This document shows, one piece after another, positions 3,148-32,022 of a DNA stretch of 34,523 nt. The position numbers were made by a program, and so were the translations under genes. The notes under the pieces are model-generated. The model did not search any database, was not told where the DNA came from, and worked only from the letters and a program-made list of their open reading frames with translations. Source of the stretch: an uncultured Lachnospiraceae bacterium. GTDB lineage: Bacteria; Bacillota; Clostridia; Lachnospirales; Lachnospiraceae. Every line of letters starts with the position of its first letter. The first letter of the stretch is position 1. The stretch is taken from contig CAMVRS010000020.1 in assembly GCA_947169935.1 (NCBI GenBank), forward strand, positions 1-34,523, in the 5' to 3' direction.

Positions 3148-3176
3148 TTTACACGGGTATTTCTTTGCTGTAATAT
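3148..3176 (+). promoter_or_regulatory. Probable promoter of the nucleoside importer operon
   Basis: TTTACA at 3148-3153 and TAATAT at 3171-3176 are spaced 17 bases apart, just downstream of the preceding terminator and about 40 bases before the lipoprotein start. The -10 box lies inside the left arm of an inverted repeat (3169-3197). Confidence 0.55.
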
Positions 3177-3197
3177 ACATTTTGTTTCCATATTACA
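3169..3197. promoter_or_regulatory. Inverted repeat, candidate operator
   Basis: TGTAATAT (3169-3176) is an exact inverted copy of ATATTACA (3190-3197), with 13 bases between and half-site centres 21 bases apart, about two helical turns. It covers the -10 box and the likely transcription start, where a dimeric repressor would block the promoter. I could not match it to a known operator, and no purine riboswitch core was recognised in this leader. Confidence 0.45.
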
Positions 3198-3217
3198 ACT
3201 TAATCAAGGAGGAAATT

Positions 3218-4456
3218 ATGAAAAAGAAGATAATGAGTATCTTGATGGCAGGTATTACCGTATTTTCGATGGCAGCCTGCACAAACGGAGGAGAAGCAGT
3301 TACGGATGGCGGCAGCAATGGCGACGGCGGTAATGCATCAGCCGGCGGAGTTAAGATCGGTGCGATCCTTGTAGGCGATGAGAACGAAGGCTACACCTAC
3401 GCACACATCGAGGGTATCAAGAAGGCTGCTGCAGCAACCGGCATCGGTGAGGAGAACATCATCTGGAAGTATTCCGTACCCGAGGATGAAAGCTGCGAGA
3501 CAGCTGCAAAGGACCTTGTTGATCAGGGCTGCAGCGCTGTATTCTCAAACAGCTACGGACATCAGTCATTTATGCAGCAGGTAGCTTCCGAGTATCCCGA
3601 AGTACAGTTCGTTTCCATGACAGGTGATACTGCGGCAGCAAGCGGTCTTAACAATTTCTCAAACGCTTTCACAAATATCTATGAGAGCCGTTATGTATCA
3701 GGCGTTGTAGCAGGCATGAAGGTAGCTGAGCTTGTTGCAGAAAATAAGCTGAGCGCAAACAACTATGATTCAAACGGAAACGTGCTCATCGGTTATGTAG
3801 GCGCATATCCTTACGCAGAGGTGGTTTCCGGATATACCGCATTCTTCCTGGGCGTACAGAGTGTATACCAGAATGTATCAATGGAAGTTAAATATACCAA
3901 TTCCTGGTTCGATATCACCAAGGAAGGTGAGACTGCAAATGCACTTATGGCTGACGGCTGCGTGATCATCGGACAGCATGCCGATTCTACAGGCGCACCT
4001 ACCGCTGTTGAGGCTGCTCTGGCTTCCGGCAAGGTTGCATATTCCGTAGGTTACAATGTTGATATGCTTGGCGTAGCACCTACAGCAGCGCTTACCTCTT
4101 CAACAAACAACTGGTCTGTATATTATACCCATGCTTTTGAGCAGGTTCTGGCAGGACAGAAGATCGATACCAACTGGGCACAGGGATATGCGCAGGATGC
4201 AGTTGGCATCACCAAGCTGGGCGATTCCGTAGCTGCAGGCACTGCTGAAAAGGTAGCAGAGGTTGAGGCTGCTATAAAGAGCGGATCACTGCATGTATTT
4301 GATACTTCCAAGTTTACCGTTGGCGGCGCACCTGTTGACAGCTTCAAGACAGATGACGGCTTTGAGTGCATAAGTGACGGATATTTCCATGAATCAGAGC
4401 ATATTTCCGCACCTGCTTTTTCACTCCGCATAGACGGTATCACAGAACTTAACTAA
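3218..4456 (+). CDS. nupN: BMP-family lipoprotein, purine nucleoside-binding component of ABC importer
   Basis: This 412-residue protein starts with a lipoprotein signal (MKKKIMSILMAG..., lipobox MAAC with Cys21), followed by a Gly/Asn/Asp-rich linker to about residue 44. The mature part has the BMP/PnrA fold hallmarks: KIGAILVGDENEGYTYAH, GCSAVFSNSYGHQ, and VGYNVDMLG near the end. BMP proteins deliver nucleosides to ABC importers. The downstream ATPase, two permeases and xpt match the NupNOPQ guanosine system of Bacillus, hence the symbol by analogy. The start is the ATG with AAGGAGG at 3206-3212; an upstream in-frame extension from 3134 covers the promoter and was rejected. Codon choice appears more biased than in its neighbours, fitting high expression. 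Confidence 0.9.
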   Translation: MKKKIMSILMAGITVFSMAACTNGGEAVTDGGSNGDGGNASAGGVKIGAILVGDENEGYTYAHIEGIKKAAAATGIGEENIIWKYSVPEDESCETAAKDLVDQGCSAVFSNSYGHQSFMQQVASEYPEVQFVSMTGDTAAASGLNNFSNAFTNIYESRYVSGVVAGMKVAELVAENKLSANNYDSNGNVLIGYVGAYPYAEVVSGYTAFFLGVQSVYQNVSMEVKYTNSWFDITKEGETANALMADGCVIIGQHADSTGAPTAVEAALASGKVAYSVGYNVDMLGVAPTAALTSSTNNWSVYYTHAFEQVLAGQKIDTNWAQGYAQDAVGITKLGDSVAAGTAEKVAEVEAAIKSGSLHVFDTSKFTVGGAPVDSFKTDDGFECISDGYFHESEHISAPAFSLRIDGITELN

Positions 4457-4469
4457 ACATTAAAAATAC

Positions 4470-4500
4470 GGGGAGTGTTTACGCACTCCCCATTTTCTTT
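4470..4500 (+). terminator. Intra-operon attenuating terminator
   Basis: GGGGAGTG (4470-4477) pairs perfectly with CACTCCCC (4484-4491) around a six-base loop, followed by ATTTTCTTT. It sits between the binding-protein gene and the ATPase gene, where partial termination would give a high lipoprotein-to-transporter ratio, a common arrangement in ABC importers. Confidence 0.8.
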
Positions 4501-4514
4501 ATAAGAGGGTTATC

Positions 4515-6053
4515 ATGAGTGAAGCGGTCATTTCTTTAAGCAATGTTACAAAAAGCTTCGGTGAAGTGCTGGCAAACGATAATGTCAGCATGGATATCTA
4601 TAAGGGAGAGATCTTATCTCTTTTGGGGGAAAACGGCAGCGGCAAGACTACTTTGATGAATATGCTCTCCGGTATTTATTATCCGGACAGCGGCGAGATA
4701 AAGGTAAACGGCAAGACCGTTAATATCAGGGATCCCAAGGATGCTTTTGCCTGCGGGATAGGTATGGTCCATCAGCATTTTAAGCTGGTGGATGTTTTTA
4801 CTGCCGCGGAGAACGTGGTGGTGGGTATCAAACAGAAGGGACACTTTGATCTGCGCTCTGTGGCTGCGGGGATAAGGGAGATCTGTGACAAGTACGGATT
4901 CGTTATGGATCCGGATAAAAAAGTCTATGACATGAGTGTGTCTGAAAAACAGACGCTTGAGATAATAAAGGTAATATACCGCGGGGCGGATATCCTGATC
5001 CTGGATGAGCCTACTGCGGTGCTTACGCCCCAGGAAACGGAGAAACTCTTCTCCGTTATACGCAATATGAAAAAAGACGGAAAGACCGTCGTGATCATAA
5101 CCCATAAGCTCCATGAGGTGCTTTCCATATCCGACAGGGTGGCGATACTGCGCAAAGGCGCTTATATCGACGCGGTAGCTACAAAGGATGCTACGGAAGA
5201 AAGCCTTACGGAAATGATGGTGGGCGAAAAGGTTGAACTTAACATCGAACGGCCGGAGGTTAAAGATAAGAAACTAAGGCTTAAGGTTGAGCATCTGAGC
5301 TGTTATAACGCCGACGGCGTTAAGATGCTGGATGATGTGAACTTTGAGGCTTTCAGCGGCGAGATACTGGGCATAGCCGGCGTTTCCGGAAACGGACAGA
5401 AGGAACTGCTGGAATCAGTGGCAGGACTTCAGAATACGATGCCCGGTGCTTCGATAGAATACTATTCACCGGAAGATGAGAAGTCCCGTGAGCTTATAGG
5501 GCTCACTCCCAGGAAGATCAGGGAGCTGGGCGTGCATCTTTCCTTTGTTCCGGAAGACCGTCTGGGCATGGGACTGGTTGGTTCCATGGGTATGTCGGAA
5601 AACATGATGCTCAAGGATTACAGCGAAGGAAATTCGATCTTTACCGATAAACAGAAACCTAAGGAGCTGGCGGAACAGATACTGAAAGAGCTTAAAGTCG
5701 TGACTCCCGGCATATCGACTCCGGTAAGGCGCTTGTCCGGCGGTAATGTGCAGAAGGTACTGGTGGGACGTGAGATAGCGGCTTCCCCCGCGGTGCTGAT
5801 GACTGCATACGCCGTAAGAGGTCTTGATATCAATACTTCCTATACCATCTACAGGCTTTTGAATGAGCAGAAGACATCCGGCGTGGCTGTCATATATGTT
5901 GGTGAGGACCTGGATGTGCTGATGGAACTGTGTGACCGCATACTGGTATTGTGCGGCGGCAGGGTCAGCGGCATACTGGATGGAAAGAGTGCGAAGAAAG
6001 AAGATATAGGCAGGCTGATGACGACTTACGGCGGCGGAAAGGAGAATAAGTGA
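4515..6053 (+). CDS. nupO: Nucleoside ABC importer, double ATPase subunit
   Basis: This 512-residue protein has two nucleotide-binding domains, as in the NupO/RbsA type. Domain 1 has Walker A GENGSGKT (38-45), a variant signature MSVSE (140-144) and Walker B ILILDEPTAVL (160-170). Domain 2 is degenerate: GVSGNGQKE replaces Walker A, the signature LSGGNVQKV is intact, and the Walker B region reads VLMTAYAVRGLD without the Asp-Glu pair. A degenerate second site is usual for this family, so hydrolysis should occur at one composite site. AAGAGGG lies upstream of the ATG. The stop codon overlaps the start of the next permease gene. It energises import by the two permeases that follow. Confidence 0.92.
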   Translation: MSEAVISLSNVTKSFGEVLANDNVSMDIYKGEILSLLGENGSGKTTLMNMLSGIYYPDSGEIKVNGKTVNIRDPKDAFACGIGMVHQHFKLVDVFTAAENVVVGIKQKGHFDLRSVAAGIREICDKYGFVMDPDKKVYDMSVSEKQTLEIIKVIYRGADILILDEPTAVLTPQETEKLFSVIRNMKKDGKTVVIITHKLHEVLSISDRVAILRKGAYIDAVATKDATEESLTEMMVGEKVELNIERPEVKDKKLRLKVEHLSCYNADGVKMLDDVNFEAFSGEILGIAGVSGNGQKELLESVAGLQNTMPGASIEYYSPEDEKSRELIGLTPRKIRELGVHLSFVPEDRLGMGLVGSMGMSENMMLKDYSEGNSIFTDKQKPKELAEQILKELKVVTPGISTPVRRLSGGNVQKVLVGREIAASPAVLMTAYAVRGLDINTSYTIYRLLNEQKTSGVAVIYVGEDLDVLMELCDRILVLCGGRVSGILDGKSAKKEDIGRLMTTYGGGKENK

Positions 6054-7153
6054 TGGCGGCAGCGAAGAAAGAACCTTTCATAAGGCTGGCTAAGCGTGAT
6101 GTGATGCCTGTGGGAAAGAAGATAGCGGTCAGACTCATAAGCCTGGCCATAGCGCTTATCGTGTGCGGTCTGCTGATATTCTCGATAACAGGCATTAATC
6201 CCCTGGAAGTATACAGTACCATGATCAAAGGAGCCTTCGGAACTAAGACCAGGGTCTGGGCTACCGTTAAAGAGATGATGATGCTTGCCTGCATAGCCAT
6301 TGGACTGGCGCCTGCATTTAAGATGCGTTTCTGGAACATCGGCGCGGAAGGCCAGGTGCTCATAGGAGGCATTGTTACGGCGGGCTGCATGATATACTTA
6401 AAGCCTCTGCCTCCGGTATTATTGTTTGCGATCATGTTTGTGGGGAGCGCCATAGCGGGGGCTCTCTGGGGCCTGCTGCCTGCAATATTTAAGGCAAAAT
6501 ATAATACCAACGAAACCCTCTTTACCCTGATGATGAATTATGTGGCGATACAGCTGACTTCCTTCTTTGTGGCAAAGTGGGAGAATCCCTTCGGATCAAA
6601 TACCGTAGGTATCATAAACCAGAACGGCCAGGAAGGCTGGTTCCCGGCAGTGTTCGGCAGCCGTTACTTTATAAGCGTGGTGCTGGTTCTTTTGCTCGCA
6701 GTGCTTATGTTTGTTTATCTCAAATATACCAAGCACGGCTATGAGATCTCGGTTGTGGGTGAATCGGAAAATACTGCGCGTTATGCCGGTATCAGCGTAG
6801 GCTGGGTTGTTATCAGGACCATGCTGGTGTCGGGAGCGCTTTGCGGCCTTGCCGGATTTATGGCTGTTGCAGGCGCATCGCATACCATATCCACATCTAC
6901 TGCAGGCGGCAGAGGCTTTACCGCCATCATAGTGGCATGGCTTGCCAAGTTTGACAGCGCTACGATGCTTCTGATATCCCTGCTTCTGGCATTTTTACAG
7001 AGCGGAGCCGGTGAGATAGCTTCCAAATGCAAATTGAACAGCTATGCATCGGAGATGATCACGGGTATCATCCTGTTCTTTATCCTGGGCAGCGAATTCT
7101 TCATCAATTTCCGTGTGATCATGCGCGGTAAAAAAGAAAAGGAGGAGAACTGA
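6053..7153 (+). CDS. nupP: Nucleoside ABC importer permease 1
   Basis: This 366-residue, highly hydrophobic protein has about nine or ten predicted membrane segments and the BPD_transp_2 family pattern: FWNIGAEGQVLIGGI, AKYNTNETLFTLMMNYVA, YEISVVGESENTARYAGI and GRGFTAIIVAWLAKF. It should form one half of the membrane channel, paired with the next gene product. The ATG at 6053 overlaps the ATPase stop by one base (TGATG) with AAAGGAG at 6038-6044. A GTG directly before it at 6050 could also be used and would add one residue. Tight overlap indicates translational coupling with the ATPase. Confidence 0.92.
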   Translation: MAAAKKEPFIRLAKRDVMPVGKKIAVRLISLAIALIVCGLLIFSITGINPLEVYSTMIKGAFGTKTRVWATVKEMMMLACIAIGLAPAFKMRFWNIGAEGQVLIGGIVTAGCMIYLKPLPPVLLFAIMFVGSAIAGALWGLLPAIFKAKYNTNETLFTLMMNYVAIQLTSFFVAKWENPFGSNTVGIINQNGQEGWFPAVFGSRYFISVVLVLLLAVLMFVYLKYTKHGYEISVVGESENTARYAGISVGWVVIRTMLVSGALCGLAGFMAVAGASHTISTSTAGGRGFTAIIVAWLAKFDSATMLLISLLLAFLQSGAGEIASKCKLNSYASEMITGIILFFILGSEFFINFRVIMRGKKEKEEN

Positions 7154-10013: not shown

Positions 10014-10044
10014 TGCAGTGTTAACAATCCCGGAGGTTACACAT

Positions 10045-10728
10045 ATGGAAAAAGCACGTATACTGGTTGTTGACGATGAGAGCAGGATGAGGAAGCTGGT
10101 CAGGGATTTCCTTGTCAGGAATGATTATGCTGTGCTGGAAGCAGAAGACGGAAGCGCAGCTCTCGATATATTCTATGCCGATAATAATATCGATCTTCTT
10201 ATACTGGATGTCATGATGCCAAAGATGGATGGCTGGGAAGTATGCAAGGAGATAAGAAAGACTTCGCAGGTGCCCATTATCATGCTGACTGCCCGCGGCG
10301 AGGAAAGGGATGAGCTGCTGGGATTTAAGCTGGGCGTTGATGAATACATGTCCAAGCCTTTCAGCCCCAAGATTCTGGTGGCCAGGGTTGAGGCGATACT
10401 GCGCCGCAGCACGGGCATGAGTGAAGATGCGCGCATTGAAGCGGGCGGAGTGGTAGTGGATAAAGTGGCGCATACCGTATTTGTTGACGGAGCCGCTATC
10501 GATCTTTCTTTCAAGGAATTTGAACTTCTGACTTTCTTTATGGAGAACCAGGGTATAGCCCTGTCAAGAGAGAAGATATTAAACAGTGTCTGGAATTATG
10601 ATTATTTCGGCGACGCCAGGACTATCGATACCCACGTTAAGAAGCTGCGCAGCAAGATGGGCCCCAAAGGGGATTATATCCATACTATCTGGGGACTTGG
10701 GTATAAGTTTGATACGAAGGAAGCATAA
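10045..10728 (+). CDS. OmpR/PhoB-family response regulator
   Basis: This 227-residue protein has a receiver domain (about 4-118) with acidic pair D10-D11, phospho-acceptor D55 (LLILDVMMP) and conserved K104 (SKPF), then a winged-helix DNA-binding domain (about 130-225) ending in RTIDTHVKKLRSKMG and IWGLGYKF. On phosphorylation it should bind DNA as a dimer. The ATG at 10045 has CGGAGG at 10031-10036; an upstream in-frame start at 10018 would place the Shine-Dalgarno inside the gene and was rejected. The cognate kinase gene follows after 2 bases. The signal and regulon are unknown; no obvious target gene lies next to it. Confidence 0.93.
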   Translation: MEKARILVVDDESRMRKLVRDFLVRNDYAVLEAEDGSAALDIFYADNNIDLLILDVMMPKMDGWEVCKEIRKTSQVPIIMLTARGEERDELLGFKLGVDEYMSKPFSPKILVARVEAILRRSTGMSEDARIEAGGVVVDKVAHTVFVDGAAIDLSFKEFELLTFFMENQGIALSREKILNSVWNYDYFGDARTIDTHVKKLRSKMGPKGDYIHTIWGLGYKFDTKEA

Positions 10729-10730
10729 GG

Positions 10731-12230
10731 ATGCCGGAAGAGAAAAAGAAAAAATGCAGGAGCATATTTTCAACGCTCAAGTTCCAGATGACGGTGACTT
10801 ATGTTGTCCTTTTGGTTGCCACTTTTTGGGGACTCTGTTTTTTTAATGATTACTTTCTTGAATTAAATTATCTGAATTATAAAAAAGATAATCTGATAGA
10901 AATCTACAGCAGGCTTTATCAGGCTAATGAAAATGATGATTTCGGTGATTCCGATTTTGAAAGCGAGATCATTGAGCTCTGTAATAATTACAACGTCAGT
11001 TTTGTCGTGACTGACGCTTCTTCAAATACAATATATTCAAATATCAAGGATCCGGGGCAGATATCCAGGCAGCTTAGGGATATCGTTTTTTCACGTGATG
11101 TTTTAGATAAAGAAGTTGTCATTGAAAATGAACAGTACAGCTTATACAATATGCGGGATCCGGCTACGGAGGCTGAATACGCGGTACTGTGGGGCGATCT
11201 AGATGACGATTCTTTTTTTATGGTGAGGACGGCGCTTGAAAGCGTTAGGGAGAGTGCGCGTATAGCCAATAAAAATCTGTTCACCATAGGCGTTGTGGCA
11301 ATGCTTATCGCTGCTGTGATAATCTGGGTGGTGACAAACACTATAACTAAGCCAATAAAATCGCTGGTTGAGGTTTCCGAGCATATGTCCGGTATGGATT
11401 TTGAAGTGCGGTATAACGGACATTACAATAATGAGATGGATGATCTTGGCGAGAATATAAACAGTCTGGCTGACAGTCTTAAGGATAATATAGGGCGTTT
11501 AAAGACTGCGAATATTGAGCTTCAGAGGGATGTTGAAGCCAGGATGAACGCCGATGAGAGACGTAAGGAATTCCTTGCGAATGTCTCCCACGAATTAAAG
11601 ACGCCTATCGCGCTGATCCAGGGATATGCGGAAGGCCTTAAGGACGGCATCATAGAGGATCAGGAGAGCAGGGATTATTATTGCGACGTTATCATGGATG
11701 AGACCCGCAAGATGAACCATCTTGTAAAATACCTCATTTCTTTGAATCAGGTGGAGAGCGGTGAAGATGCCATGGTCATAGAGCGTTTTGATCTGGATGC
11801 GCTGATAAATGCCAGTGTCAATTCTTTTGCCCAGATGTGTGAGCAGAATGAGATAAAGATGATCTATAACGGCGCTCCCGGACTCTTTGTCTGGGGTGAT
11901 GAATACCAGGTGGAAGAAGTTCTGAGAAACTATATATCGAATGCCGTGCATTACTGCAGCGGCAGGAAAGAGATAGTTATCCGGGTAGAACGTCAGGAAG
12001 ATAAGATACGTACCTGTGTATTCAACAGCGGGAATCCCATCCCGGAGGAAAGCCTGGGAAGATTATGGGAGAAGTTTTATAAGGTGGATAAAGCCAGGAC
12101 CCGCGAATACGGGGGCAGCGGCCTGGGACTTTCGATAGTAAAGGCTATAATGGAATCGATGCATCAGAAATACGGCGTATGTAATAAGGATGACGGCGTT
12201 GAATTCTATTTCGAACTGTCGACCAGATAA
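10731..12230 (+). CDS. Membrane sensor histidine kinase
   Basis: This 499-residue kinase has membrane helix 1 at about 20-38, an extracellular sensor region at about 40-180, helix 2 at about 184-205, a HAMP linker (205-258), HisKA with the phospho-acceptor His287 in FLANVSHELKTPIALIQGYA, and a HATPase domain with N-box N400/N404 (LRNYISNAVHY) and GGSGLGLSIVK near 461-471. The layout is that of PhoR/VanS-type kinases. It is encoded 2 bases after its presumed partner regulator. The sensor region matches no motif I recognise. It is rich in acidic residues at about 66-84, which might bind cations or cationic peptides (speculation). Confidence 0.93.
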   Translation: MPEEKKKKCRSIFSTLKFQMTVTYVVLLVATFWGLCFFNDYFLELNYLNYKKDNLIEIYSRLYQANENDDFGDSDFESEIIELCNNYNVSFVVTDASSNTIYSNIKDPGQISRQLRDIVFSRDVLDKEVVIENEQYSLYNMRDPATEAEYAVLWGDLDDDSFFMVRTALESVRESARIANKNLFTIGVVAMLIAAVIIWVVTNTITKPIKSLVEVSEHMSGMDFEVRYNGHYNNEMDDLGENINSLADSLKDNIGRLKTANIELQRDVEARMNADERRKEFLANVSHELKTPIALIQGYAEGLKDGIIEDQESRDYYCDVIMDETRKMNHLVKYLISLNQVESGEDAMVIERFDLDALINASVNSFAQMCEQNEIKMIYNGAPGLFVWGDEYQVEEVLRNYISNAVHYCSGRKEIVIRVERQEDKIRTCVFNSGNPIPEESLGRLWEKFYKVDKARTREYGGSGLGLSIVKAIMESMHQKYGVCNKDDGVEFYFELSTR

Positions 12231-22260: not shown

Positions 22261-22273
22261 TGATATAATATCA
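22261..22273 (+). promoter_or_regulatory. Extended -10 promoter embedded in a palindrome
   Basis: TGATATAATATCA is a 13-base perfect palindrome (6+1+6). It contains TGnTATAAT, an extended -10 element with TATAAT at 22264-22269. No good -35 is needed or seen. Transcription would begin near 22276, only 11 bases before the first ATG of the EAL cluster. The palindrome may be an operator. Confidence 0.5.
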
Positions 22274-22286
22274 TCGTGATCTGTAT

Positions 22287-25200
22287 ATGAACGGGGGTTA
22301 TTATTTGGGAGAGCTGTCACTGTTCTATCGTTCTTCTTTCTACATGGCGGGCTTCTTTATATGCCTGTCTTCTCTCGTGTATACATTTATACGCGGCAAG
22401 ACCAAACGTAAACAGAACAGGACATACATTTCCATACTCGTATGCGTTATGGCCGGCGCCGTCTCCGATATTGCAGGGGTTTATTCGGAGCTGTTCAGCC
22501 CGGAAACGGCCAGGGTGCTCCGCAGCTTTTTCCTCTTTGTTTATTTCTTTTCACATGCGCTTCTTGCTCCCCTTATTTATGTATATATGATCTACATCAG
22601 CGGATCTGTTCATCTGTACCGCAAGCATAAAGAGCATTTCACGATACAGATGCTTCCCTTTGTGCTGATGGAACTGATTGTTTTTATAAATCCCTTCACA
22701 CATCTGCTTTATAAGATAACCGAAAATCTCGATTATATACGCGGGCCGCTGATAGTGGTCTATTATCTTATAGGCGCCCTGTATTTCGGCATGGCTATCG
22801 TAGATCTTATAAAACGCTGGAATGCTGTTACGCCCAAATGCCGCAACGGTCTCTGCTTTTTGTTCGCCTTATCCATAGTCGGCATTATCCTGCAGTTTGT
22901 TGATAATCTGCTGCAGGTGGAACTGTTTTTTGAAGCCATGGCGCTGATGTGCATCATGATCTTTATCGAAGATGATGAAGAGCGCATGGATGTTTACACC
23001 GGATTGTTCAACCGTAACGCCCTTTCCATGGATCTTAAGAATTATATAAGCATGGAGCAGGATTTCTCCGTTACCGTAGTCTATGTGAATAATGATGACA
23101 TACTGGGAAAGATCACGGGAAATTACAGCCATGAGAGCCTTCTGGACGGAGTGGCCGATTATCTGAAAACCGTGCTTCCGTATTATCATATCTATAAGAT
23201 GAGTCCCCAGTGTTTTGTGCTTGTGGGAATAGGCATGAGCAGGGAAGAAACGGAGGAAATGGCCGGAAAGATAAGGGAGAGATTTGAGAGCCCCTTTAAG
23301 AATGATGAGGTGGAATTAAAACTGCAGGCGCTGGTCATGCATGCGGGATATCCGTCCGATCTGCGTACGGCGGATGAAGTATTCCTTATGACGGATTCAC
23401 CGGTGCCTCTGGATATGGCAGGAAATATCGCGCCGGACGCCGGACTTGAACGTCTGCAGCACAGCATAAAGGTGGAAAAGGCTTTGAGACGGGGCTTTTC
23501 CGAACATAATTTTGAGGTCTATTACCAGCCGGTATATTTTCTTGAGAATCTTTCCATACATTCGGCAGAAGCGCTTATACGTCTGCATGACAGCGAACTG
23601 GGAGAAATACCGCCTTCCGAATTCATACCCATAGCCGAGCATGACGGCATTATAGACGAGATAGGTGATTTTGTTCTTGAAGAGGCCTGCCTTTTCCTTT
23701 CCAGCGGTCTGCCCGTGGAGATGGGGATCGAGTATATCAGCGTTAATCTTTCGATGCTGCAGTGTATGAGACCCGGCTTTGCACAGTATGCCAGGGATAT
23801 GGCGCTGCGTTATGATATATCGCCTTCCCTCATCAGTTTTGAGATAAATGAATCTGTTGTCGCGGGTGATCATGAGATACTCAGACAGATAATAGCCGAG
23901 ATAAAGAGCTATGGGTTCCGATTCTCCCTGGACAGTTACGGTACGGGCTTCTCCGATATGAAAGCTCTGTATTCCCTTGATTTTGATGTGATAAAGATAG
24001 ACAGGAGCATCCTGAGCAGAGCTTCCGACGGCAGTGTGGGAAGGGTTGTCCTGGAAAGCTGCGTGCGCATGATAAGGCAGATGCACAGACGCATCCTGTG
24101 TGAAGGCGTGGAAACGAAGGAACAGATAGATTTCCTGAAGAAACTGGAAGTTGATTATGTCCAGGGCTATTATTCCTCAAGACCCATTACCAAGAACGAG
24201 CTGCTGGGTATACTGCGCGTTACCGAGCTTGCCAGGATGGAGGAGAGGCGCGCCATTGCCGCCAGTGAGGCTAAATCCAGTTTCCTTGCCAATATGTCCC
24301 ACGAGATAAGAACGCCTATAAATGCAGTGCTGGGAATGAACGAGATGATACTCCGCGGATGTGATGAGGCTCCCATCATGAGATATGCAAAGGAGATCGA
24401 AACTGCAGGAAGGAATCTGCTGTCCCTCATCAATAACATACTGGACTATTCCAAGATAGAAGCAGGAGAGATGGAAATAGTCGAGGCTGAATACGATCTT
24501 AAACCTGCCCTGAGTGATGTGATAAAGGAAGTATACAGAAAGACCAACCAGAAGCATCTGACTTTCAGGGTATACATATCGGAAGAGCTGCCGGCCAGAC
24601 TTTACGGTGATGAATTCCGCATAAAGCAGATCATGATGAACATACTCAACAATGCAGTCAAGTATACTTCGGAGGGAAGCGTTCATCTGACTCTGGAAGG
24701 AGAGCAGTATTCGGAAGATGAAGTACTGATAAAGATCATCGTAGAAGATACCGGTGTGGGTATAAGGGAAGAGGATCAGAGCAGGCTTTATGAGATGTTC
24801 CAGAGACTTGATATGGAGAAGAACAAAACCGTTGAAGGAACGGGCCTGGGGCTGGCCATAAGCTATCATCTGCTGCAGATGATGCAGGGCGATATAGAAG
24901 TTGAGAGTGATTACGGACTGGGCTCCACCTTTACGGTACGTGTGCTGCAGAAGGTGGTGGGGAATGAACGTATCATGCCGTTCAAGGCAGAGGAATTAAA
25001 GGCTATTTATCAGGGCTACAGCGGACCAAGGGAGTTTGCAGCTCCGGATGCAAGACTGCTGCTTATAGATGATACCCCGCTTAACCATACTGTGATAAAA
25101 GAGCTTTTAAAGAAAACCAGGATACAGATCGATACCGCGCTAAGCGGCGAAGAAGGTCTTAAGATGGCAAAAGAGAAGTTTTACGATCTGATATTTATGG

Positions 25201-25436
25201 ATCAGCGCATGCCGGGGCTTTCCGGAAAGGAGACCCTTGAGCTGCTCAGGAAAACAGAGGATGCTGTCAGCCGCAGGGTCGGCGTTATCTCCATGACAGC
25301 AAATGCCTATGCAGGCATAAGGGATGCGGAGCGCGCAGCCGGTTTTGCTGATTATCTCGAAAAGCCCGTTGATATGGGCAGATTACTGGAACTGCTGTTA
25401 CAGTATCTGCCGGAGAGCAAGATATTCTATACATAG
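22287..25436 (+). CDS. Membrane 7TM, degenerate GGDEF, EAL, hybrid histidine kinase
   Basis: This 1049-residue protein has about seven membrane helices (1-228) with an INPFTHLLY loop, then a GGDEF-like domain (about 235-370) lacking the GGDEF motif, where KMSPQCFVLV takes its place. An EAL domain (about 395-645) has EAL at 428-430, but LDSYGTGFS (549-556) replaces the usual LDDFGTGYS, so one metal ligand is Ser550. A histidine kinase follows: His672 in FLANMSHEIRTPINAVLG, HATPase with NILNNAVKYT and GTGLGLAIS. A receiver (about 921-1046) ends it, with D928/D929, D972 and K1026. It may link phosphorelay input to c-di-GMP binding. The ATG lacks a clear Shine-Dalgarno; TTG at 22305, preceded by GGGGG, is an alternative start. 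It is the first of three tandem paralogues. Confidence 0.88.
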   Translation: MNGGYYLGELSLFYRSSFYMAGFFICLSSLVYTFIRGKTKRKQNRTYISILVCVMAGAVSDIAGVYSELFSPETARVLRSFFLFVYFFSHALLAPLIYVYMIYISGSVHLYRKHKEHFTIQMLPFVLMELIVFINPFTHLLYKITENLDYIRGPLIVVYYLIGALYFGMAIVDLIKRWNAVTPKCRNGLCFLFALSIVGIILQFVDNLLQVELFFEAMALMCIMIFIEDDEERMDVYTGLFNRNALSMDLKNYISMEQDFSVTVVYVNNDDILGKITGNYSHESLLDGVADYLKTVLPYYHIYKMSPQCFVLVGIGMSREETEEMAGKIRERFESPFKNDEVELKLQALVMHAGYPSDLRTADEVFLMTDSPVPLDMAGNIAPDAGLERLQHSIKVEKALRRGFSEHNFEVYYQPVYFLENLSIHSAEALIRLHDSELGEIPPSEFIPIAEHDGIIDEIGDFVLEEACLFLSSGLPVEMGIEYISVNLSMLQCMRPGFAQYARDMALRYDISPSLISFEINESVVAGDHEILRQIIAEIKSYGFRFSLDSYGTGFSDMKALYSLDFDVIKIDRSILSRASDGSVGRVVLESCVRMIRQMHRRILCEGVETKEQIDFLKKLEVDYVQGYYSSRPITKNELLGILRVTELARMEERRAIAASEAKSSFLANMSHEIRTPINAVLGMNEMILRGCDEAPIMRYAKEIETAGRNLLSLINNILDYSKIEAGEMEIVEAEYDLKPALSDVIKEVYRKTNQKHLTFRVYISEELPARLYGDEFRIKQIMMNILNNAVKYTSEGSVHLTLEGEQYSEDEVLIKIIVEDTGVGIREEDQSRLYEMFQRLDMEKNKTVEGTGLGLAISYHLLQMMQGDIEVESDYGLGSTFTVRVLQKVVGNERIMPFKAEELKAIYQGYSGPREFAAPDARLLLIDDTPLNHTVIKELLKKTRIQIDTALSGEEGLKMAKEKFYDLIFMDQRMPGLSGKETLELLRKTEDAVSRRVGVISMTANAYAGIRDAERAAGFADYLEKPVDMGRLLELLLQYLPESKIFYT

Positions 25437-25446
25437 GAAAATGCCC

Positions 25447-27363
25447 ATGATCTATGATTTTTTAAATATGTCAGCCTTCCTGATAGCGGCTATAGTTATA
25501 TTGCTGCTGGTATTGATATATACCCTGGTGGTCAGGCGGAATGACAGGTTCAGGAACAAAGTATTCATAATGATGCTGGTCTTTTCCCTTCTCTGCGCCT
25601 GCTGCGAGATGGGGAAGGAACTGGTGCGTTTCAGTATCGCAGAGCCGGCAAGGGTTTTGCTGATCCTGGATATACTCGAATACTTTCATTCCTTCTTCCA
25701 TGTGCTTATACCTGTGCTTTTCTGTTATTATATTATCAGGGCCAACGGATCCCACAGACATATGAACAGGCTGCTTAATGTAGTGTTTTTTGCACCCGGA
25801 TTTTTAAGCGAACTTATGGTGCTTTCAAATCCCCTGCATCATAAGATGTATTATCATGATGCGGATATGGCATTACACGGAGGCATCTGCATGACTGCGG
25901 CCTATGTGATAGCAGTGATATATATAATTGTCGGCGCGGTCAACCTGATCAAACACAGATACGCGATAGCCCGCAGGCGTGTATATTCCATGCTGCTTTT
26001 CTTCCCTGTTTCGCTTACCGGAATGTCCCTGCAGTTAATGTATAACTATACCAAATGCGAGATATTTGCCATATCCCTGACAATGCTGGGGATCATGCTT
26101 ACCATGGAAAACGAAGATGAACGCATGGATATGGCCTGCGGCGTATATAACAGAAATGAGCTGCGGCTGTTCCTGGCAAATGTTCTGAGGCTGGATATCA
26201 GATTCCACGTTATAACCATCAGGCTGACAAATTATGATATCCTGATGCGGCTTTCCGGCACCAGCGGAGTCGATCCCATAATGAGTGCCGTGGCTGCATG
26301 TCTTGTTAAGGAATATAACTGGTACAGGATATACAGATCGTCTATTACATCTTTCATGATACTTTCGGACATGAGCGCCGAGGAGGTAGAGCGCCTTTCC
26401 GAAAAAATGTATGTCCGCTTCCTTGAAGGCGTTTATGTTGAAGGCATAGATACGCCGGTGGCTATCCGGATGATGAGAGCTGCCATACCCGGAGATCTTT
26501 CGAATATCGAAGATGTTATGCTGATGGTAGACGGACCTCTGCCGCCTTATGAAGGCAGGGGGATCATCTGCGGTGAAAAGCTCAAATATCTTACCAGATC
26601 CAACGATCTGGAAGAGGCTATGGACAGAGGCTTAAAGAACGGCGGGTTCTCTATCTATTACCAGAGTGTTCATAAGATAGGTGATCTGGACATATGCGGG
26701 ATAAAAGCGTTGGTCCGGCTTAAGGATGAAAAACTTGGAACCCTTATGCCGGGGGAATTTATTCCCCAGGCGGAGCGCACGGGACAGATAAGGCAGATAG
26801 GCGATTTCGTTCTTGGCGAAGTGTGCGGTTTTATAAAGAACGGAGGGCTTAAGCGCATCGGATGTAATAAGGTATATGTAAATCTTTCCTTCGTACAATG
26901 CATGTCGCCGGATTACGCACTGCATGTTATAAGTCTGGTAGAATCATATGGCGTGGATCCTTCCATGATCATGTTTGAGATAACCAAGCCTGTTAACAAA
27001 GATGATTTTGAGATACTTGAGCGTTTTATGAAGATGTTAAAGACCAGGGGCTTTGGTTTCCTGATGGAGGATTTCGGATCGGGGTATGCTAATGTTGAAG
27101 CGATCTTTACCCTGGATTTTGATATAGTCAAGATAGACCGTTCAATATTATGGGAAGCTGTAAAGAGCGAATCAGGCAGGGTGGTTCTGGAAAATTCCAT
27201 AAGGATGATAAAGGAGCTGGACCGCAGCATACTGGCGGAAGGCGTGGAAAACAGCGCACAGATAGATATGCTTAAAGCACTGGAAGTTGATTATCTGCAG
27301 GGATACTATTTTTCAAAACCCATGCCGGCAGATAAAGTCGAAGAAATGACAGCAAAGAGGTAA
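25447..27363 (+). CDS. Membrane 7TM, degenerate GGDEF and EAL protein, no kinase module
   Basis: This 638-residue paralogue of the flanking genes has about seven helices (1-220), a GGDEF-like domain without its motif (YRSSITSFMIL at that position) and an EAL-like domain (about 385-632). The EAL signature reads KALVRL (420-425), and LMEDFGSGY replaces LDDFGTGY (E541, D542). The remaining signature residues persist: NLS near 479, FEIT near 510, VKIDRS, AEGVE and LQGYYFSKP. It is probably not a phosphodiesterase and may be a c-di-GMP sensor or protein-binding domain. It ends right after EAL, without the kinase and receiver. TAGGA at 25434-25438 favours ATG 25447 over 25441; longer upstream frames overlap the previous gene. 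It may form heteromers with its neighbours. Confidence 0.85.
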   Translation: MIYDFLNMSAFLIAAIVILLLVLIYTLVVRRNDRFRNKVFIMMLVFSLLCACCEMGKELVRFSIAEPARVLLILDILEYFHSFFHVLIPVLFCYYIIRANGSHRHMNRLLNVVFFAPGFLSELMVLSNPLHHKMYYHDADMALHGGICMTAAYVIAVIYIIVGAVNLIKHRYAIARRRVYSMLLFFPVSLTGMSLQLMYNYTKCEIFAISLTMLGIMLTMENEDERMDMACGVYNRNELRLFLANVLRLDIRFHVITIRLTNYDILMRLSGTSGVDPIMSAVAACLVKEYNWYRIYRSSITSFMILSDMSAEEVERLSEKMYVRFLEGVYVEGIDTPVAIRMMRAAIPGDLSNIEDVMLMVDGPLPPYEGRGIICGEKLKYLTRSNDLEEAMDRGLKNGGFSIYYQSVHKIGDLDICGIKALVRLKDEKLGTLMPGEFIPQAERTGQIRQIGDFVLGEVCGFIKNGGLKRIGCNKVYVNLSFVQCMSPDYALHVISLVESYGVDPSMIMFEITKPVNKDDFEILERFMKMLKTRGFGFLMEDFGSGYANVEAIFTLDFDIVKIDRSILWEAVKSESGRVVLENSIRMIKELDRSILAEGVENSAQIDMLKALEVDYLQGYYFSKPMPADKVEEMTAKR

Positions 27364-27365
27364 AT

Positions 27366-30300
27366 ATGACTGCGACATTACTGGCACAGATTCATGAAAG
27401 CAGCATAATGATAGTCACCATCATACTCGGAGTATGTCTTCTTCTTGTGACCTTTATCCAGGGTAGGACTGCAAGGAAACAGAACAGGATATTCTGTATC
27501 ACGGTATTGCTGGTGATATTTAATGCGGCAACGGGCATAGTCGTTCTCATGGGATCGCCTTATTACAGCCAGATCCCCTGGGTTGCGCAGCTGGTGCGGC
27601 TGATGCATTTCCTTTATTTCATCACCCATCCGCTTTTAGGAGCCATATTCTTTAATTATGTGATAGTATGTTCGGGCGTTGATGCACGTATGGAAGGATC
27701 GCGTGCCAGGATAAAGAAACATTTTTATCTTGTACCTGCAATATTGATACTTCTTATGGGGCTTACCAATCCTCTTACCCATTTTGTATTTTCTGTGGGG
27801 GATAACGGTCTGGTAATCCGCGGCAGCGGCGAGATGATAATGTACGCTCTTTCGTTTTTCTACTTTGCACTGGTATTTGCAGTGATAATACTCAACTGGA
27901 AATTCATAAGCGGCAATAAGAAATGGACAGTTATACTTTTCCTTATGGTCACGCTTACGGGCATATTGCTGCAGCTGATAATATCTAATATAAGGGCTGA
28001 GCTTTTTGCTGAGATGATAGGTCTTGTGGGAGTAATGATCCTGGTGGAAAATGAAGACCACAGGATGGATCTTTCTACCGGAGTATATAACAGGGCGGCG
28101 CTTCTGGCAGATCTGAATACCTCACTTAAACTACTGGAAGATTTTAATGCAATATGCATCAGGATAACCAATGCGGATACTCTGCAGCGCCTGATAGGTA
28201 CTACGGACAGTGACCAGCTTATAAGCCTTGTATCGGAGTATCTTAAAAGCGTACACCCGGGGCAGTATATTTACAGGACGACTCCGGATTCGTTTATGCT
28301 TATACAGGCAGGTTCACCCACCCAGGCAGAGATGAAGGCGTCAAAGATATTTGAGCGTCTGGAGGAAAGCTTTGAATACCAGGAAGCCAATGTGATGCTC
28401 CAGAGTGTGGTCATGTGCGCTGACGTAAAGGAGGTCTTTGAGCGCAAGGATGACATTATGCTTATGTGTGACGGCCCGCTGCCTTCACGTGAGAAAGACC
28501 ATGTGCTGAAGGGAAGCGAGCTTGGCTATCTGGTCCGCAGGGCAGAAGTGGAAAGTGCTCTTCACCGAGGGCTGGCGGAGAAACGTTTTGAAGTTTATTA
28601 CCAGCCTGTATACCGTACCAAAGGTATGTCGATCTATTCGGCAGAGGCGCTGCTTAGACTAAAGGACAGTAAGATAGGCAATATCACTCCTGATGAGTTT
28701 ATACCCATAGCGGAGCAGAATGGTCTTATCGACAGCCTTGGTGATTACGTACTTGAAGAAGTATGTCTTTTCCTTTCCAGCGGTATCCCTACCGAAATGG
28801 GTCTGGAGTGTATAGAGATCAACCTGTCGGTACTGCAGTGTCTGCAGCCCGGCTTTGTTGAACGTGTTCGGAGCATAGTGCGTAAGTATGATGTGACCCC
28901 GCGCTTTATAAATTTTGAAGTTACGGAGTCTGCGGCTGCCAGTGATTATGCCGTACTGGATACGGTCCTTAATGATCTGCGGAGCTGCGGATTCCTGCTT
29001 TCGCTGGATGATTACGGCGTAGGATATTCAAATGTACGCTCAGTATTCTCACTTGATTTTGACCTTGTTAAGATCGATAAGTCTATACTCTGGGAAGTGG
29101 ATAATTACGGAAGCGGTGAGAAGAGCAAGGGACGTGTGATCCTGGAAAACACCGTACGCATGATAAAGGAAATGAACTTAAAGAGCCTGGTGGAAGGTGT
29201 TGAGACCCAGGAACAGCTTTCGCTGCTGGAACAGCTTGATGTGGATTATCTGCAGGGCTACTATTTCTCAAGGCCGGTCAGCAAAAATGAGCTGCTTGGT
29301 ATATTAAGGGTTACCGAGCTGACACGTATGGAAGAGCAGAGAGCCAGGGCAGCCAGTGACGCTAAATCCAATTTCCTTGCGAATATGTCCCATGAGATAC
29401 GTACACCTATCAATGCGATCCTGGGCATGAACGAGATGATCCTGCGTGAAACAAAGAACACGCAGATACGCGACTACGCCCAGAACATAGAAGGTGCCGG
29501 CCGCACGCTTATCTCCCTCATAAACGATATACTTGATTTCTCCAAGATAGAATCGGGCAGTATGGAGATAGTCGAATCCGAATATGACTTAAGTTCTGTT
29601 GTGAATGACGTGGTGAATATGATACAGGTCAAAGCCGATGAGAAAAAGCTTAAGTTTAATATCAAGGTCAATCCCGATCTGCCGGATAACCTCTTTGGTG
29701 ACGGAATGCGCCTGCGGCAGATAATGGTAAATATCTTAAACAATGCGGTTAAGTATACCCAGCAGGGCAGCGTGACCCTGGATATAAACGGCAACCTTAT
29801 GGGAAGGGACCAGCTCCAGCTGCTGATCTCCGTGACCGATACGGGAATAGGGATAAAGGAGGAAGATCTGGGCAAGCTGTTCCTTAAGTTCCACCGATTC
29901 GATGAAAACTTAAACAGGAATATCGAGGGCAGCGGTCTGGGACTTGCTATCACCTACAGCCTGCTTCAGATAATGAACGGAGAGATAGACTGCCGCTCAA
30001 CTTATGGTGAGGGGTCGACCTTTACGGTATTGCTGCCGCAGAAGATCATCAAACATGAGGCTATCGGGGATTTCAGGAGCAGATACCAGAGCAATACCCG
30101 TGACAGGCTTACCTACCGCGAATCCTTTAGGGCGCCGGAAGCCCGGATACTGGTCGTTGACGATACTCCGGTAAACCATCTTGTCATCAAAGAACTGCTG
30201 AAGCAGACACAGATAAAGATAGATACTGCCATGAGCGGAAAAGAATGTCTGGAGATGGTGCAGAGCCAGCAGTATGATGTGATCCTTCTGGATTTCCGTA

Positions 30301-31172
30301 TGCCGGAGATGGATGGTATAGAGACTCTGCATATCATGAGATCCATGGGAGAATTCCTGAATGCCAAAACTCCTGTGGTAGCGCTTACGGCTAATGCGGT
30401 AACCGGTGCAAGGGAGCGTTTCCTGAACGAAGGCTTTGACGAATATATGATCAAGCCCGTAGACGGGGCAAAACTGGAAGAACTGCTGATGAAGTATCTG
30501 CCTACTTCAAAGATGCTGGTGGCAGGCGGATTCAGCGCTGAAGACCCGCAGGAAGAAGTGTTTGTCAGCCTTGAAGATCCCTGGCTTTCAGAGCTTAAGG
30601 ATCTGGATACGGATGCCGGTATCAAAAACTGCGGTTCGGCTTCCGGATACAGGAGTGTCCTTCAGATCTATTATGAAGGATATGAAGATAAAGCGGCGGA
30701 GATCGAAGGCTATTTTAAGAATGAAGACTGGGAGAATTATACCATACGTGTGCATGCATTAAAGAGCTCTTCAAGGGTGATAGGAGCTGCGGAGATCTCG
30801 CAGATGGCAGCCGATCTGGAAAAAGCCGGAAATGAGCTTGACACAGAGACGATTATATCGGATACTGATAAATTATTGACGGATTACCGCAGTCTTTGCA
30901 AGCACTTAAACAGTGTGCTGGGACCTGATGAAAATGAAGCGGACAGCGCAGACGATACGAGGCCGCTCATAAATGAAGCCGATCTTAAAGATGCTTACGC
31001 TACAATGAAAGACTTTGCAAAGATGTATGATTATGATAACATGATATTTGTACTTGATCAGCTTAAGGAATACAGGACCGGCGATGAAGATGCGCAGCTG
31101 CTGAAAAAACTGCGGTCCCTTACGGAAGATTTTAAGTGGGAAGAAATTGCCGGGCTTTTGAGTGATAAATAA
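27366..31172 (+). CDS. Membrane 7TM, degenerate GGDEF, EAL, hybrid histidine kinase with Hpt
   Basis: This 1268-residue protein has about seven helices (1-228) with a TNPLTHFVF loop, a motif-less GGDEF-like domain (235-370) and a well-kept EAL domain. The latter has EAL at 427-429, INLS, FEVTES, LDDYGVGYS (547-555) with both Asp, VKIDKS, VEGVE and LQGYYFSRP, so phosphodiesterase activity is plausible. HisKA has His676, HATPase has NILNNAVKYT and GSGLGLAIT, and the receiver has D976 (LLDFRMP) and K1030. The Hpt domain carries His1130 in VHALKSSSRVIGA. A further 70-residue helical tail (about 1200-1268) follows. It contains a full phosphorelay chain in one polypeptide; the next gene could receive phosphate from Hpt. 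AGAGG lies upstream of the ATG, 2 bases after the previous stop. Confidence 0.9.
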   Translation: MTATLLAQIHESSIMIVTIILGVCLLLVTFIQGRTARKQNRIFCITVLLVIFNAATGIVVLMGSPYYSQIPWVAQLVRLMHFLYFITHPLLGAIFFNYVIVCSGVDARMEGSRARIKKHFYLVPAILILLMGLTNPLTHFVFSVGDNGLVIRGSGEMIMYALSFFYFALVFAVIILNWKFISGNKKWTVILFLMVTLTGILLQLIISNIRAELFAEMIGLVGVMILVENEDHRMDLSTGVYNRAALLADLNTSLKLLEDFNAICIRITNADTLQRLIGTTDSDQLISLVSEYLKSVHPGQYIYRTTPDSFMLIQAGSPTQAEMKASKIFERLEESFEYQEANVMLQSVVMCADVKEVFERKDDIMLMCDGPLPSREKDHVLKGSELGYLVRRAEVESALHRGLAEKRFEVYYQPVYRTKGMSIYSAEALLRLKDSKIGNITPDEFIPIAEQNGLIDSLGDYVLEEVCLFLSSGIPTEMGLECIEINLSVLQCLQPGFVERVRSIVRKYDVTPRFINFEVTESAAASDYAVLDTVLNDLRSCGFLLSLDDYGVGYSNVRSVFSLDFDLVKIDKSILWEVDNYGSGEKSKGRVILENTVRMIKEMNLKSLVEGVETQEQLSLLEQLDVDYLQGYYFSRPVSKNELLGILRVTELTRMEEQRARAASDAKSNFLANMSHEIRTPINAILGMNEMILRETKNTQIRDYAQNIEGAGRTLISLINDILDFSKIESGSMEIVESEYDLSSVVNDVVNMIQVKADEKKLKFNIKVNPDLPDNLFGDGMRLRQIMVNILNNAVKYTQQGSVTLDINGNLMGRDQLQLLISVTDTGIGIKEEDLGKLFLKFHRFDENLNRNIEGSGLGLAITYSLLQIMNGEIDCRSTYGEGSTFTVLLPQKIIKHEAIGDFRSRYQSNTRDRLTYRESFRAPEARILVVDDTPVNHLVIKELLKQTQIKIDTAMSGKECLEMVQSQQYDVILLDFRMPEMDGIETLHIMRSMGEFLNAKTPVVALTANAVTGARERFLNEGFDEYMIKPVDGAKLEELLMKYLPTSKMLVAGGFSAEDPQEEVFVSLEDPWLSELKDLDTDAGIKNCGSASGYRSVLQIYYEGYEDKAAEIEGYFKNEDWENYTIRVHALKSSSRVIGAAEISQMAADLEKAGNELDTETIISDTDKLLTDYRSLCKHLNSVLGPDENEADSADDTRPLINEADLKDAYATMKDFAKMYDYDNMIFVLDQLKEYRTGDEDAQLLKKLRSLTEDFKWEEIAGLLSDK

Positions 31173-31198
31173 GATATTCTATATAAGAGGTGTGGAAC

Positions 31199-31963
31199 AT
31201 GGCAAAACCGGTTTTGGTGATAAGAAGGGATGAAACTTTTCTGGTAAACACCATTAAAACTCAGCTGGATAAGAATTTTTTCCCGCATATAGAATCGGGT
31301 ATCTCCGTTAAAGAACTGAGCAGATATAAAGATGATGTTACGTTGATGATACTGTATGCCGATGATTCTGTCGGAGAATCGAGGGATGCACTGGTCTATA
31401 TAAAAGATCTACTGCTGGAGGAAGAGAAAGAGCTGATCGTATTCGGCGGAAGAACAGAGCTTGATGAAGTGGATAAGATAATTCCAAGGGAACTGGTCGA
31501 GGCTGTCTTTGAAAGACCCTTCGATATGAATGTTATGATGGAGAAGATAGGGGAATTCATTGATGAGCAGAGTCTTATACAGCGCAAAAAGATGATACTC
31601 ATAGTGGATGACGATCCCACCTATCTTAAGCTTATCAAGGAATGGCTCAAGGATGATTACAGGGTTAGCATGGCCAATTCCGGCATGCAGGCGATCACCT
31701 GGCTTGCAAGCAATAAAGCGGATCTGGTGCTGCTGGATTATGAGATGCCTACCATAAAGGGATCGAAAGTCCTTGAGATGCTGCGCTCGGAATCCAGTTC
31801 ATCCTCTATACCCGTTATGTTCCTTACCGGAAAGAGTGATAAAGAAGCAATCATGGAAGTGCTTGCGCTTAAGCCGGCGGGGTATCTGTTAAAGTCCATT
31901 GACAGGAAGACTCTTCTGGAAACACTTGATAAATTCTTTGTTCAGCAGAAGTATAAGAACTGA
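31199..31963 (+). CDS. Double-receiver protein without output domain
   Basis: This 254-residue protein has two receiver-like halves. The N-terminal one (about 2-122) starts KPVLVIRRDETFL without the acidic pair and reads LMILYADDS where the phospho-Asp would lie, so it is probably a pseudo-receiver. The C-terminal one (about 130-252) is intact: ILIVDDDPTYLKLI, phospho-acceptor in LVLLDYEMPTIKGS, MFLTGKS and GYLLKSID with the conserved Lys. No DNA-binding, GGDEF or EAL output exists. It closes the EAL-kinase operon, 26 bases after the Hpt-bearing gene. It could be a phosphate sink or a protein-interaction switch. AAGAGGTG favours ATG 31199 over GTG 31190. Confidence 0.88.
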   Translation: MAKPVLVIRRDETFLVNTIKTQLDKNFFPHIESGISVKELSRYKDDVTLMILYADDSVGESRDALVYIKDLLLEEEKELIVFGGRTELDEVDKIIPRELVEAVFERPFDMNVMMEKIGEFIDEQSLIQRKKMILIVDDDPTYLKLIKEWLKDDYRVSMANSGMQAITWLASNKADLVLLDYEMPTIKGSKVLEMLRSESSSSSIPVMFLTGKSDKEAIMEVLALKPAGYLLKSIDRKTLLETLDKFFVQQKYKN

Positions 31964-31995
31964 AAAAGGGTTAGTATTGTTGAACTCTTACATGT

Positions 31996-32022
31996 AAAAG
32001 CTCCTTAAAGGGGGCTTTTTTT
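31996..32022 (+). terminator. Rho-independent terminator of the EAL-kinase cluster
   Basis: AAAAGCTCC (31996-32004) pairs with GGGGGCTTTT (32010-32019), with one wobble, followed by a T-tract to 32022. Confidence 0.85.

Follow-up and report, generated by a model that had tools for sequence, protein, structure and literature searches.

Within a 34,523-nucleotide stretch of DNA from an uncultured Lachnospiraceae bacterium with relatives in the rumen (contig CAMVRS010000020.1 of assembly GCA_947169935.1), analysed whole and called the window here, four + strand genes after recG (g1 to g4) encode what we read as a phosphorelay at the membrane, with a GGDEF-EAL lobe inserted between a seven-transmembrane (7TM) front and a histidine kinase (HK). 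The main role of this lobe, we propose, is to feed allosterically into the kinase, a reading that we favour with evenly balanced confidence. It builds on architecture, residue conservation, spacing and co-occurrence, which are all read directly from the sequences. The features of the unit are as follows, REC standing for a receiver domain.

22287..25436, + strand: g1, 7TM - degenerate GGDEF - EAL - HisKA (H672) - HATPase - REC (D972), without Hpt; 1049 aa
23478..24185, + strand: EAL domain of g1; RocR D296 replaced by Ser, other listed motif residues kept
24270..25394, + strand: HisKA-HATPase-REC of g1 (Pfam)
25441..27363, + strand: g2, 7TM - degenerate GGDEF - EAL only; 640 aa
26614..27321, + strand: EAL domain of g2 (Pfam); its motif reads KAL
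27366..31172, + strand: g3, 7TM - degenerate GGDEF - EAL - HisKA (H676) - HATPase - REC (D976) - Hpt (H1130) - C-terminal tail; 1268 aa
28557..29276, + strand: EAL domain of g3; listed catalytic residues intact
29283..29450, + strand: predicted continuous helix, g3 residues 640-695, from the EAL end through H676 (AlphaFold2)
29361..30485, + strand: HisKA-HATPase-REC of g3 (Pfam)
30657..30878, + strand: Hpt of g3, the sole Hpt found among the four proteins (Pfam)
31190..31963, + strand: g4, pseudo-receiver and receiver (DDD140-142, D183, T213, K235), GTG start; 257 aa
31996..32019, + strand: hairpin resembling an intrinsic terminator, with T-run; downstream of g4, end of the unit

A sequence-only reading of the window had described three adjacent paralogues with a 7TM, motif-less GGDEF and EAL front, two of which continue into HisKA-HATPase-REC and one also into Hpt, and Pfam bears this out. 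EAL is recognised in g1 (5e-57), g2 (8e-53) and g3 (3e-58), followed in the same frame of g1 by HisKA (2e-17), HATPase (5e-23) and REC (2e-20), and in that of g3 by HisKA (2e-20), HATPase (2e-24), REC (2e-24) and Hpt (9e-7); g2 also matches HisKA_7TM (2e-7), and g4 matches REC (1e-24). The term motif-less is fair for the GGDEF stretches, in which the string GG[DE]EF is absent and for which the Pfam match falls below the cut-off in g1 (E 0.018), is weak in g3 (8e-6; 26.1 bits at a cut-off of 23.8) and is not listed for g2. In g3 the parts make up a complete His-Asp-His hybrid kinase, with the HisKA His, the ATP-binding Asn and Gly residues, the REC Asp, Thr and Lys and the Hpt His, and g1 is without Hpt. 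H676, D976 and H1130 of g3 lie at the positions given for them earlier, and H672 and D972 of g1 are placed by the offset of 4 between the g1 and g3 matches for HisKA and for the EAL-to-His stretch. The C-terminal tail of g3 (residues 1190-1268, window 30933-31169) is common to HK-REC-Hpt kinases that stand beside genes for a pseudo-receiver joined to a receiver (pREC-REC), and the Pfam scan gave it no name. The genes are closely packed, with gaps of 30, 4, 2 and 17 bases in the order recG-g1-g2-g3-g4 when g2 is counted from its likely start at about 25441, which corrects the mechanical start of its open reading frame at 25324. Translation of g1 may instead begin at the TTG near 22305, which follows a run GGGGG; several orthologues align from about residue 10 on.

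The lobe is joined to the kinase at a fixed distance. From the EAL Gln (Q630 in g3) to the HisKA His (H676) there are 47 residues inclusive in 93/93 fused rows of our alignments, without insertion or deletion, as would be expected of a rigid helix, and the control spacings in the 76 Hpt-bearing rows run from 184 to 207 between GGDEF and EAL and from 85 to 185 between REC and Hpt. The AlphaFold2 model of g3 residues 1-920 places a single helix at 640-695, with a block pLDDT of 70 to 86. The earlier proposal was of a membrane device that couples c-di-GMP level or binding to phosphorelay state; coupling of the state of the EAL domain to the kinase is retained from it as the best reading of this constant spacing and predicted single helix. 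The best Foldseek matches of the model are the GGDEF-EAL structures MorA, PA0575 and DosP, while LapD and GacS, the latter a kinase, rank lower; each of the 50 Foldseek matches listed is by its title either a GGDEF/EAL protein or a kinase and none is both, and among the best 60 of 126 PDB sequences none covers EAL and kinase in its best stretch.

By these alignments the kinase is what is always kept, unlike the catalytic residues of the EAL domain. All 76 Hpt-bearing rows (two of them duplicates) have the HisKA His-Glu, the second N-box Asn and the scored G1 and G2 residues, as well as the REC Asp pair, Asp, Thr and Lys and the Hpt His and Lys, and the first N-box Asn is found in 73/76; the complete His-Asp-His-Asp chain proposed earlier holds up on this and on the receiver residues of g4. 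The 17 rows that lack Hpt have the HisKA His throughout, and the REC Asp and Lys in 14/14 of those with letters there.

Eight EAL positions were scored in RocR numbering (E175, N233, E265, D295, D296, K316, E352 and Q372), of which we take K316 and Q372 to be further catalytic positions. They were mapped through an alignment to MorA and by spacing that matches the RocR numbers, over 74 rows with Hpt, 17 without and 50 EAL-only, after two duplicate contigs and one cut row had been dropped. E175, N233, E265, D295, D296 and E352 are given in PMC7911125. In the genus of the source bacterium, which we call the window genus, g3 keeps 8/8 of these residues in 12/12 copies and g1 has lost D296 alone in 12/12 (Ser in 10, Gly in 1, Arg in 1). 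In g2, E175 is Lys and D295 is Glu in 12/12, Q372 is lost in addition in the copy of locus L080, and the second Glu of ExxE, a position outside the eight, is Lys or Arg in 12/12; its KAL motif keeps the EALxR Arg in every copy, and the Asn, the Lys and both Glu residues of EGVE are also retained. Of the three, g3 alone can be expected to hydrolyse cyclic di-GMP (c-di-GMP), and it probably functions both as a phosphodiesterase and as a reporter of occupancy, while g2 may be an inactive partner or receptor, LapD-like in its E-to-K change. This difference in catalytic state between the three EAL domains was missing from the sequence-only reading and is added here.

It could be argued that the EAL domain is instead the output, the 7TM front and kinase phosphorylation controlling hydrolysis of c-di-GMP by g3 and the inactive paralogues only tuning it. 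The unbroken catalytic set of the window-genus g3, the mean identity of 80% in its EAL domain and the many c-di-GMP enzymes of the source genome (GGDEF is matched 51 times and EAL 26 times above the cut-off; PilZ, also a c-di-GMP domain, 3 times) would suit such an arrangement, but we think it unlikely, since 61/62 Hpt-bearing copies outside the window genus have lost at least one catalytic residue, as has g1 in all 12 copies, with the architecture unchanged, and since the EAL domain lies upstream of the phospho-His, the usual place of input modules. All eight residues are kept in 13/74 Hpt-bearing rows. In a Butyrivibrio group of 34 loci (our own grouping, in which two are titled Pseudobutyrivibrio and one Lachnospiraceae) at least three of the eight are lost in 34/34 Hpt-bearing copies and the EALxR Arg is gone in 30/34. 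The 28 other Hpt-bearing copies outside the window genus include one that is intact (L092), 15 that have lost E352 only, two D296 only, two that have lost two residues and eight at least three. EAL-only copies outside the window genus have lost at least three in 38/38, and among the five Hpt-less rows there, four of them cut by a contig end, three have lost E352 only, one two residues and one at least three.

The persistence of the unit in the Butyrivibrio group despite such losses would fit a lobe that is a mere structural spacer or dimerisation module and senses no nucleotide. We nevertheless regard this as quite improbable, because the intact site of g3, the single loss of g1 and the Arg, Asn, Lys and EGVE Glu residues kept by g2 look like selection on the pocket. 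It is plausible that c-di-GMP is the ligand of g1, g2 and g3 in the window genus, and doubtful that it is the ligand in the Butyrivibrio group. The domains also differ in how tightly they are held, as judged by mean pairwise identity within the window genus (11 rows for g1, the split g1 of L080 being left out). In g1 the values are 45% for 7TM, 45% for GGDEF, 76% for EAL, 82% for the HK part and 60% for REC; in g2 they are 40%, 50% and 62% for 7TM, GGDEF and EAL; and in g3 they are 42% for 7TM, 53% for GGDEF, 81% for the HK part, 77% for REC, 63% for Hpt and 54% for the C-terminal tail, beside the EAL value given above. That the EAL domain of g1 is tightly held despite its lost metal ligand suggests a role other than catalysis.

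The unit recurs well beyond the window. We searched 60 genomes of relatives, 34 of them of the window genus, scoring no more than 11 candidates in each, and found a match to g3 over most of its architecture in 13/34 window-genus genomes (in G025, G032 and G021 the listed match stops short at an end). The order recG-g1-g2-g3 is present in 11/34, that is, in 11 of the 13 holders of g3, though split over two contigs in G009 and with the contig ending inside g3 in G032; g4 is seen in 10. The remaining holders, G013 and G033, have a g3-g4 pair without recG, g1 or g2 in the stretches fetched. An assembly fusion or misread frames, for which one might cite the 306 contigs of the source assembly and two broken copies in other contigs of metagenome-assembled genomes, are refuted and of negligible probability, since recurrence of the same architecture in 11 other window-genus genomes rules out chance and fusion, and 77 loci of a wider scan, among them some with titles that name Butyrivibrio strains such as NC2007 and XPD2006, carry fused copies. 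The broken copies are the g1 of L080 (4946-8085) and the g3 tail of L087 (region of 13388), each in two frames, through either a real split or an assembly error.

That wider scan covered 84,980 species, each represented by one genome, with a 655-residue front-end alignment. The titles of its 77 loci name Lachnospiraceae, Butyrivibrio, Pseudobutyrivibrio, Lachnospira, Clostridiaceae, Clostridiales and Clostridia, mostly Lachnospiraceae or Butyrivibrio, and many name rumen samples. A pREC-REC gene lies within the unit in 66/77 and the contig ends first in 7; it is about 7 kb upstream in L104 and L108, and L091 and L094 showed none. The usual order in the Butyrivibrio group is a gene for about 400-430 aa, the fused kinase, pREC-REC and an EAL-only protein; in L122 (8703-9923) the protein of about 407 aa ahead of the fused kinase is HDOD by Pfam, the single one tested, and a gene is similarly placed in most loci of the group. 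Among 398 genomes sampled across the phylum, with two candidates scored per genome, whole-architecture rows at E <= 1e-150 came from the source genome and G063, and 9 of 392 genomes of the order have a whole-architecture match besides the source genome. On plasmids, no record among the 1057 that matched covers 80% of g3 in one place, and the 10 listed match the kinase half only.

The history of the paralogues was read from one quick maximum-likelihood tree of 143 front-end rows with SH-aLRT support only, in which long branches, including L107 and L139, are flagged, as are the places where L107 joins rows of L135 and L139. Six other loci supply the EAL-only proteins that form the sister group of window-genus g2 (SH-aLRT 99). 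The sister group of g1 consists of nine fused proteins, among them those of the same six loci (SH-aLRT 98), where the gene order is fused, EAL-only, pREC-REC. Because the two sister groups share these loci, the g1-g2 pair looks old; g3 is, judging from the tree, a further paralogue. Hpt is shown in 8/9 of the sister rows of g1, the ninth being cut by a contig end, and g1 has evidently lost it. Uncut copies without Hpt number 13 (12 of the window genus and that of L107), stand in two separate places of the tree and all belong with an Hpt-bearing paralogue; among the 12, that of L080 is split and the partner of that of L047 is on another contig. By comparison, 67 loci have a single fused row, and after setting aside four that are cut and L047, 62/62 of the remainder have Hpt. 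The constant pairing of Hpt-less copies with an Hpt-bearing paralogue suggests that two kinases may share one Hpt. In L107 (5120-14981) the Hpt-less EAL kinase faces an operon on the opposite strand, which comprises a fused kinase, an EAL-only protein and pREC-REC.

A number of observations weigh against the reading of the lobe as a c-di-GMP-responsive input to a shared phosphorelay. Stretches within domains are as constant as the EAL-to-kinase connection (E427-D548 of EAL, 122 residues, and H676-N793, 118 residues, each in 76/76), common descent from one fusion accounts for part of the constancy of the connection, and the 47-residue spacing may be the mere legacy of a single ancestral fusion. 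The AlphaFold2 model, a single chain built from 59 sequences (mean pLDDT 82.6), has a pTM of 0.55, so that domain placement is unsure. Most of the pocket has gone in the Butyrivibrio group, so that at least there the EAL domain cannot be an ordinary c-di-GMP sensor, and the window-genus g3 and L092 demonstrate that catalysis can be kept, which leaves room for an enzyme output. REC is the least kept catalytic part of g1, and Ser replaces the REC Thr in 3/14 of the Hpt-less rows that have letters at this position. All 12 copies of g1 without Hpt amount to one evolutionary event, with L107 as the second. A signal of g1-g3 heterodimers was sought in DHp and rejected: the two are 70% identical there, and g3 and other kinases are up to 71% identical (mean 60%, 43 segments), which gives heterodimers no support. 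Finally, g2 matches the NCBIfam LapD model NF045673 at 65.1 bits (E 3.8e-18) in its GGDEF-EAL part, far from the cut-off of 1020.

The unit ends with a proposed phosphate acceptor. The earlier description of g4 as a receiver-only end gene is right as to the receiver, but g4 is a tandem, and its first domain looks like a pseudo-receiver, in which Arg109-Pro replaces the Lys-Pro of receivers. An alignment of 38 selected g4 proteins shows DDD140-142, D183, T213 and K235 without variation, and likewise the Arg-Pro of the first domain. The idea of an operon-encoded final receiver holds up on these residues and on the g4-type receivers that adjoin HK-REC-Hpt kinases in related systems; no output domain was found in the 257 aa of g4. 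The best Foldseek matches of g4 are PleD entries, aligned over both domains. When 10 candidates were scored in each of 246 genomes of the order, 30 genomes had a match to g4 at E <= 1e-25; 23 of the 30 loci have the pREC-REC form, and an HK, REC or Hpt frame adjoins it in 19/23 (1.5 kb flanks). In 14/14 larger regions, the majority of them selected for a kinase already in view, pREC-REC stands beside an HK-REC-Hpt kinase, and none of the adjoining kinases there has an EAL match. In three of these regions, L193 (3069-5576), L194 (6120-8666) and L200 (2-2233), a 7TM front is joined directly to HK-REC-Hpt, and such a kinase adjoins pREC-REC in L193 and L194; several of these kinases lie in tandem. 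The occurrence of pREC-REC beside non-EAL kinases argues that kinase and pREC-REC form a wider unit, of which the GGDEF-EAL lobe is one of several front ends.

We tentatively propose the following mechanism for an allosteric lobe. Signals at the 7TM front and occupancy of the GGDEF-EAL lobe would be summed, and we infer that the state of the lobe would pass along the fixed-length helix to the dimerisation helix that bears the phospho-His. Phosphate would then move from His672/676 to Asp972/976, on to His1130 and finally to Asp183 of g4. In such a scheme g3 would contribute the intact EAL site and the only Hpt, g1 would be a kinase with a metal-broken EAL domain and without Hpt, its phosphate likely travelling via the Hpt of g3, and g2 would be a kinase-less, LapD-like inactive EAL partner. 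A more elaborate version, which we consider unlikely as a whole, is a heteromeric c-di-GMP-gated phosphorelay, in which an active EAL, a metal-broken EAL and a LapD-like receptor gate two kinases that share one Hpt and one tandem receiver, occupancy being written into phosphate flow. One cluster may join two major bacterial signalling systems and, if the allosteric reading is true, it would be a covalent link of c-di-GMP to a phosphorelay in Lachnospiraceae. The conserved unit also forms a natural series, in which the EAL domain ranges from catalytically intact, by way of copies that have lost a single residue, to mostly degenerate, always on the same 47-residue connection, which makes the drive of a histidine kinase by an EAL domain directly testable.

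Elsewhere in the window, an ordinary pair of a response regulator (REC-Trans_reg_C) and a HAMP histidine kinase occupies 10018-12230. A scan of the window for riboswitches and other RNA control elements returned only tmRNA at gathering score (Rfam RF00023, 226-560), and a promoter scan gave 35 promoter-like sites where shuffled sequences lead one to expect 31, so that no promoter is claimed. In the source genome, the three further EAL frames above 1000 aa are GGDEF-EAL proteins with no kinase match, frames below 1000 aa being only partly scanned with Pfam. Another contig of this genome (locus L079, contig C81) has a minus-strand tandem of two 7TM-GGDEF-EAL-like proteins at 2687-4612 and 4609-6534; the first has EAL, NLS, FEITE, DDYGTG and EGVE motifs and the second none by pattern.

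The unit displays individual features of several known systems. As in the HisKA_7TM kinases (Pfam PF16927), a 7TM front precedes the histidine kinase, but in the window proteins a GGDEF-EAL lobe is placed between them. PleD resembles g4 in having two receiver folds in tandem; unlike PleD, g4 has its pseudo-receiver first, and it ends after the second receiver without GGDEF, which sets it apart from the PleD type. The paradigm of inactive GGDEF-EAL receptors is LapD, in which a periplasmic domain and HAMP lie ahead of GGDEF-EAL. The protein is described as transmembrane, with HAMP, an inactive GGDEF-EAL, KVL at the EAL motif and R450 (PMC3032553), and g2 is like it in its inactive EAL domain, in the Lys at the first motif residue (KAL as against KVL) and in the Arg kept after it. 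In contrast to LapD, the front of g2 is HisKA_7TM with no HAMP in the Pfam list, and its partner would be a kinase.

Hybrid kinases with a built-in c-di-GMP domain offer a second comparison. SgmT of Myxococcus xanthus is a hybrid histidine kinase whose primary sensor is GAF and whose C-terminal GGDEF binds c-di-GMP and sequesters the protein in space (PMC3509222). Judged from their sequences, g1 and g3 are likewise hybrid kinases with a built-in domain of c-di-GMP type, but theirs is N-terminal to the kinase, behind the 7TM front, and so not of the SgmT arrangement. In ShkA, c-di-GMP stimulates the kinase via a built-in pseudo-receiver (PMC7010744), as opposed to the GGDEF-EAL lobe of g1 and g3. 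The sequence-only reading had taken the arrangement to be uncharacterised, and in the open-licence literature we found no paper on a three-gene tandem in which EAL loss is graded and a single Hpt is accompanied by a pREC-REC partner; the only paper found to join Butyrivibrio, EAL, GGDEF and histidine kinase concerns AI-2 receptors, and the portion of it available does not treat a link between c-di-GMP and a phosphorelay (PMC9540692). There is also a likeness to EAL proteins with HisKA, HATPase and Hpt in Caulobacterales and Rhizobiales, which like g3 bring EAL together with a histidine kinase and Hpt (PMC9756655), and since such proteins are already described in Alphaproteobacteria the fusion type itself is not new. 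These proteins, likened here by description and not by sequence comparison, differ in belonging to another phylum and in having HAMP among the domains named, and the tandem paralogues, 7TM front and following pREC-REC of the window unit are not part of that account as far as it is available. The parts of the window unit are of known kinds, and their combination is unusual.

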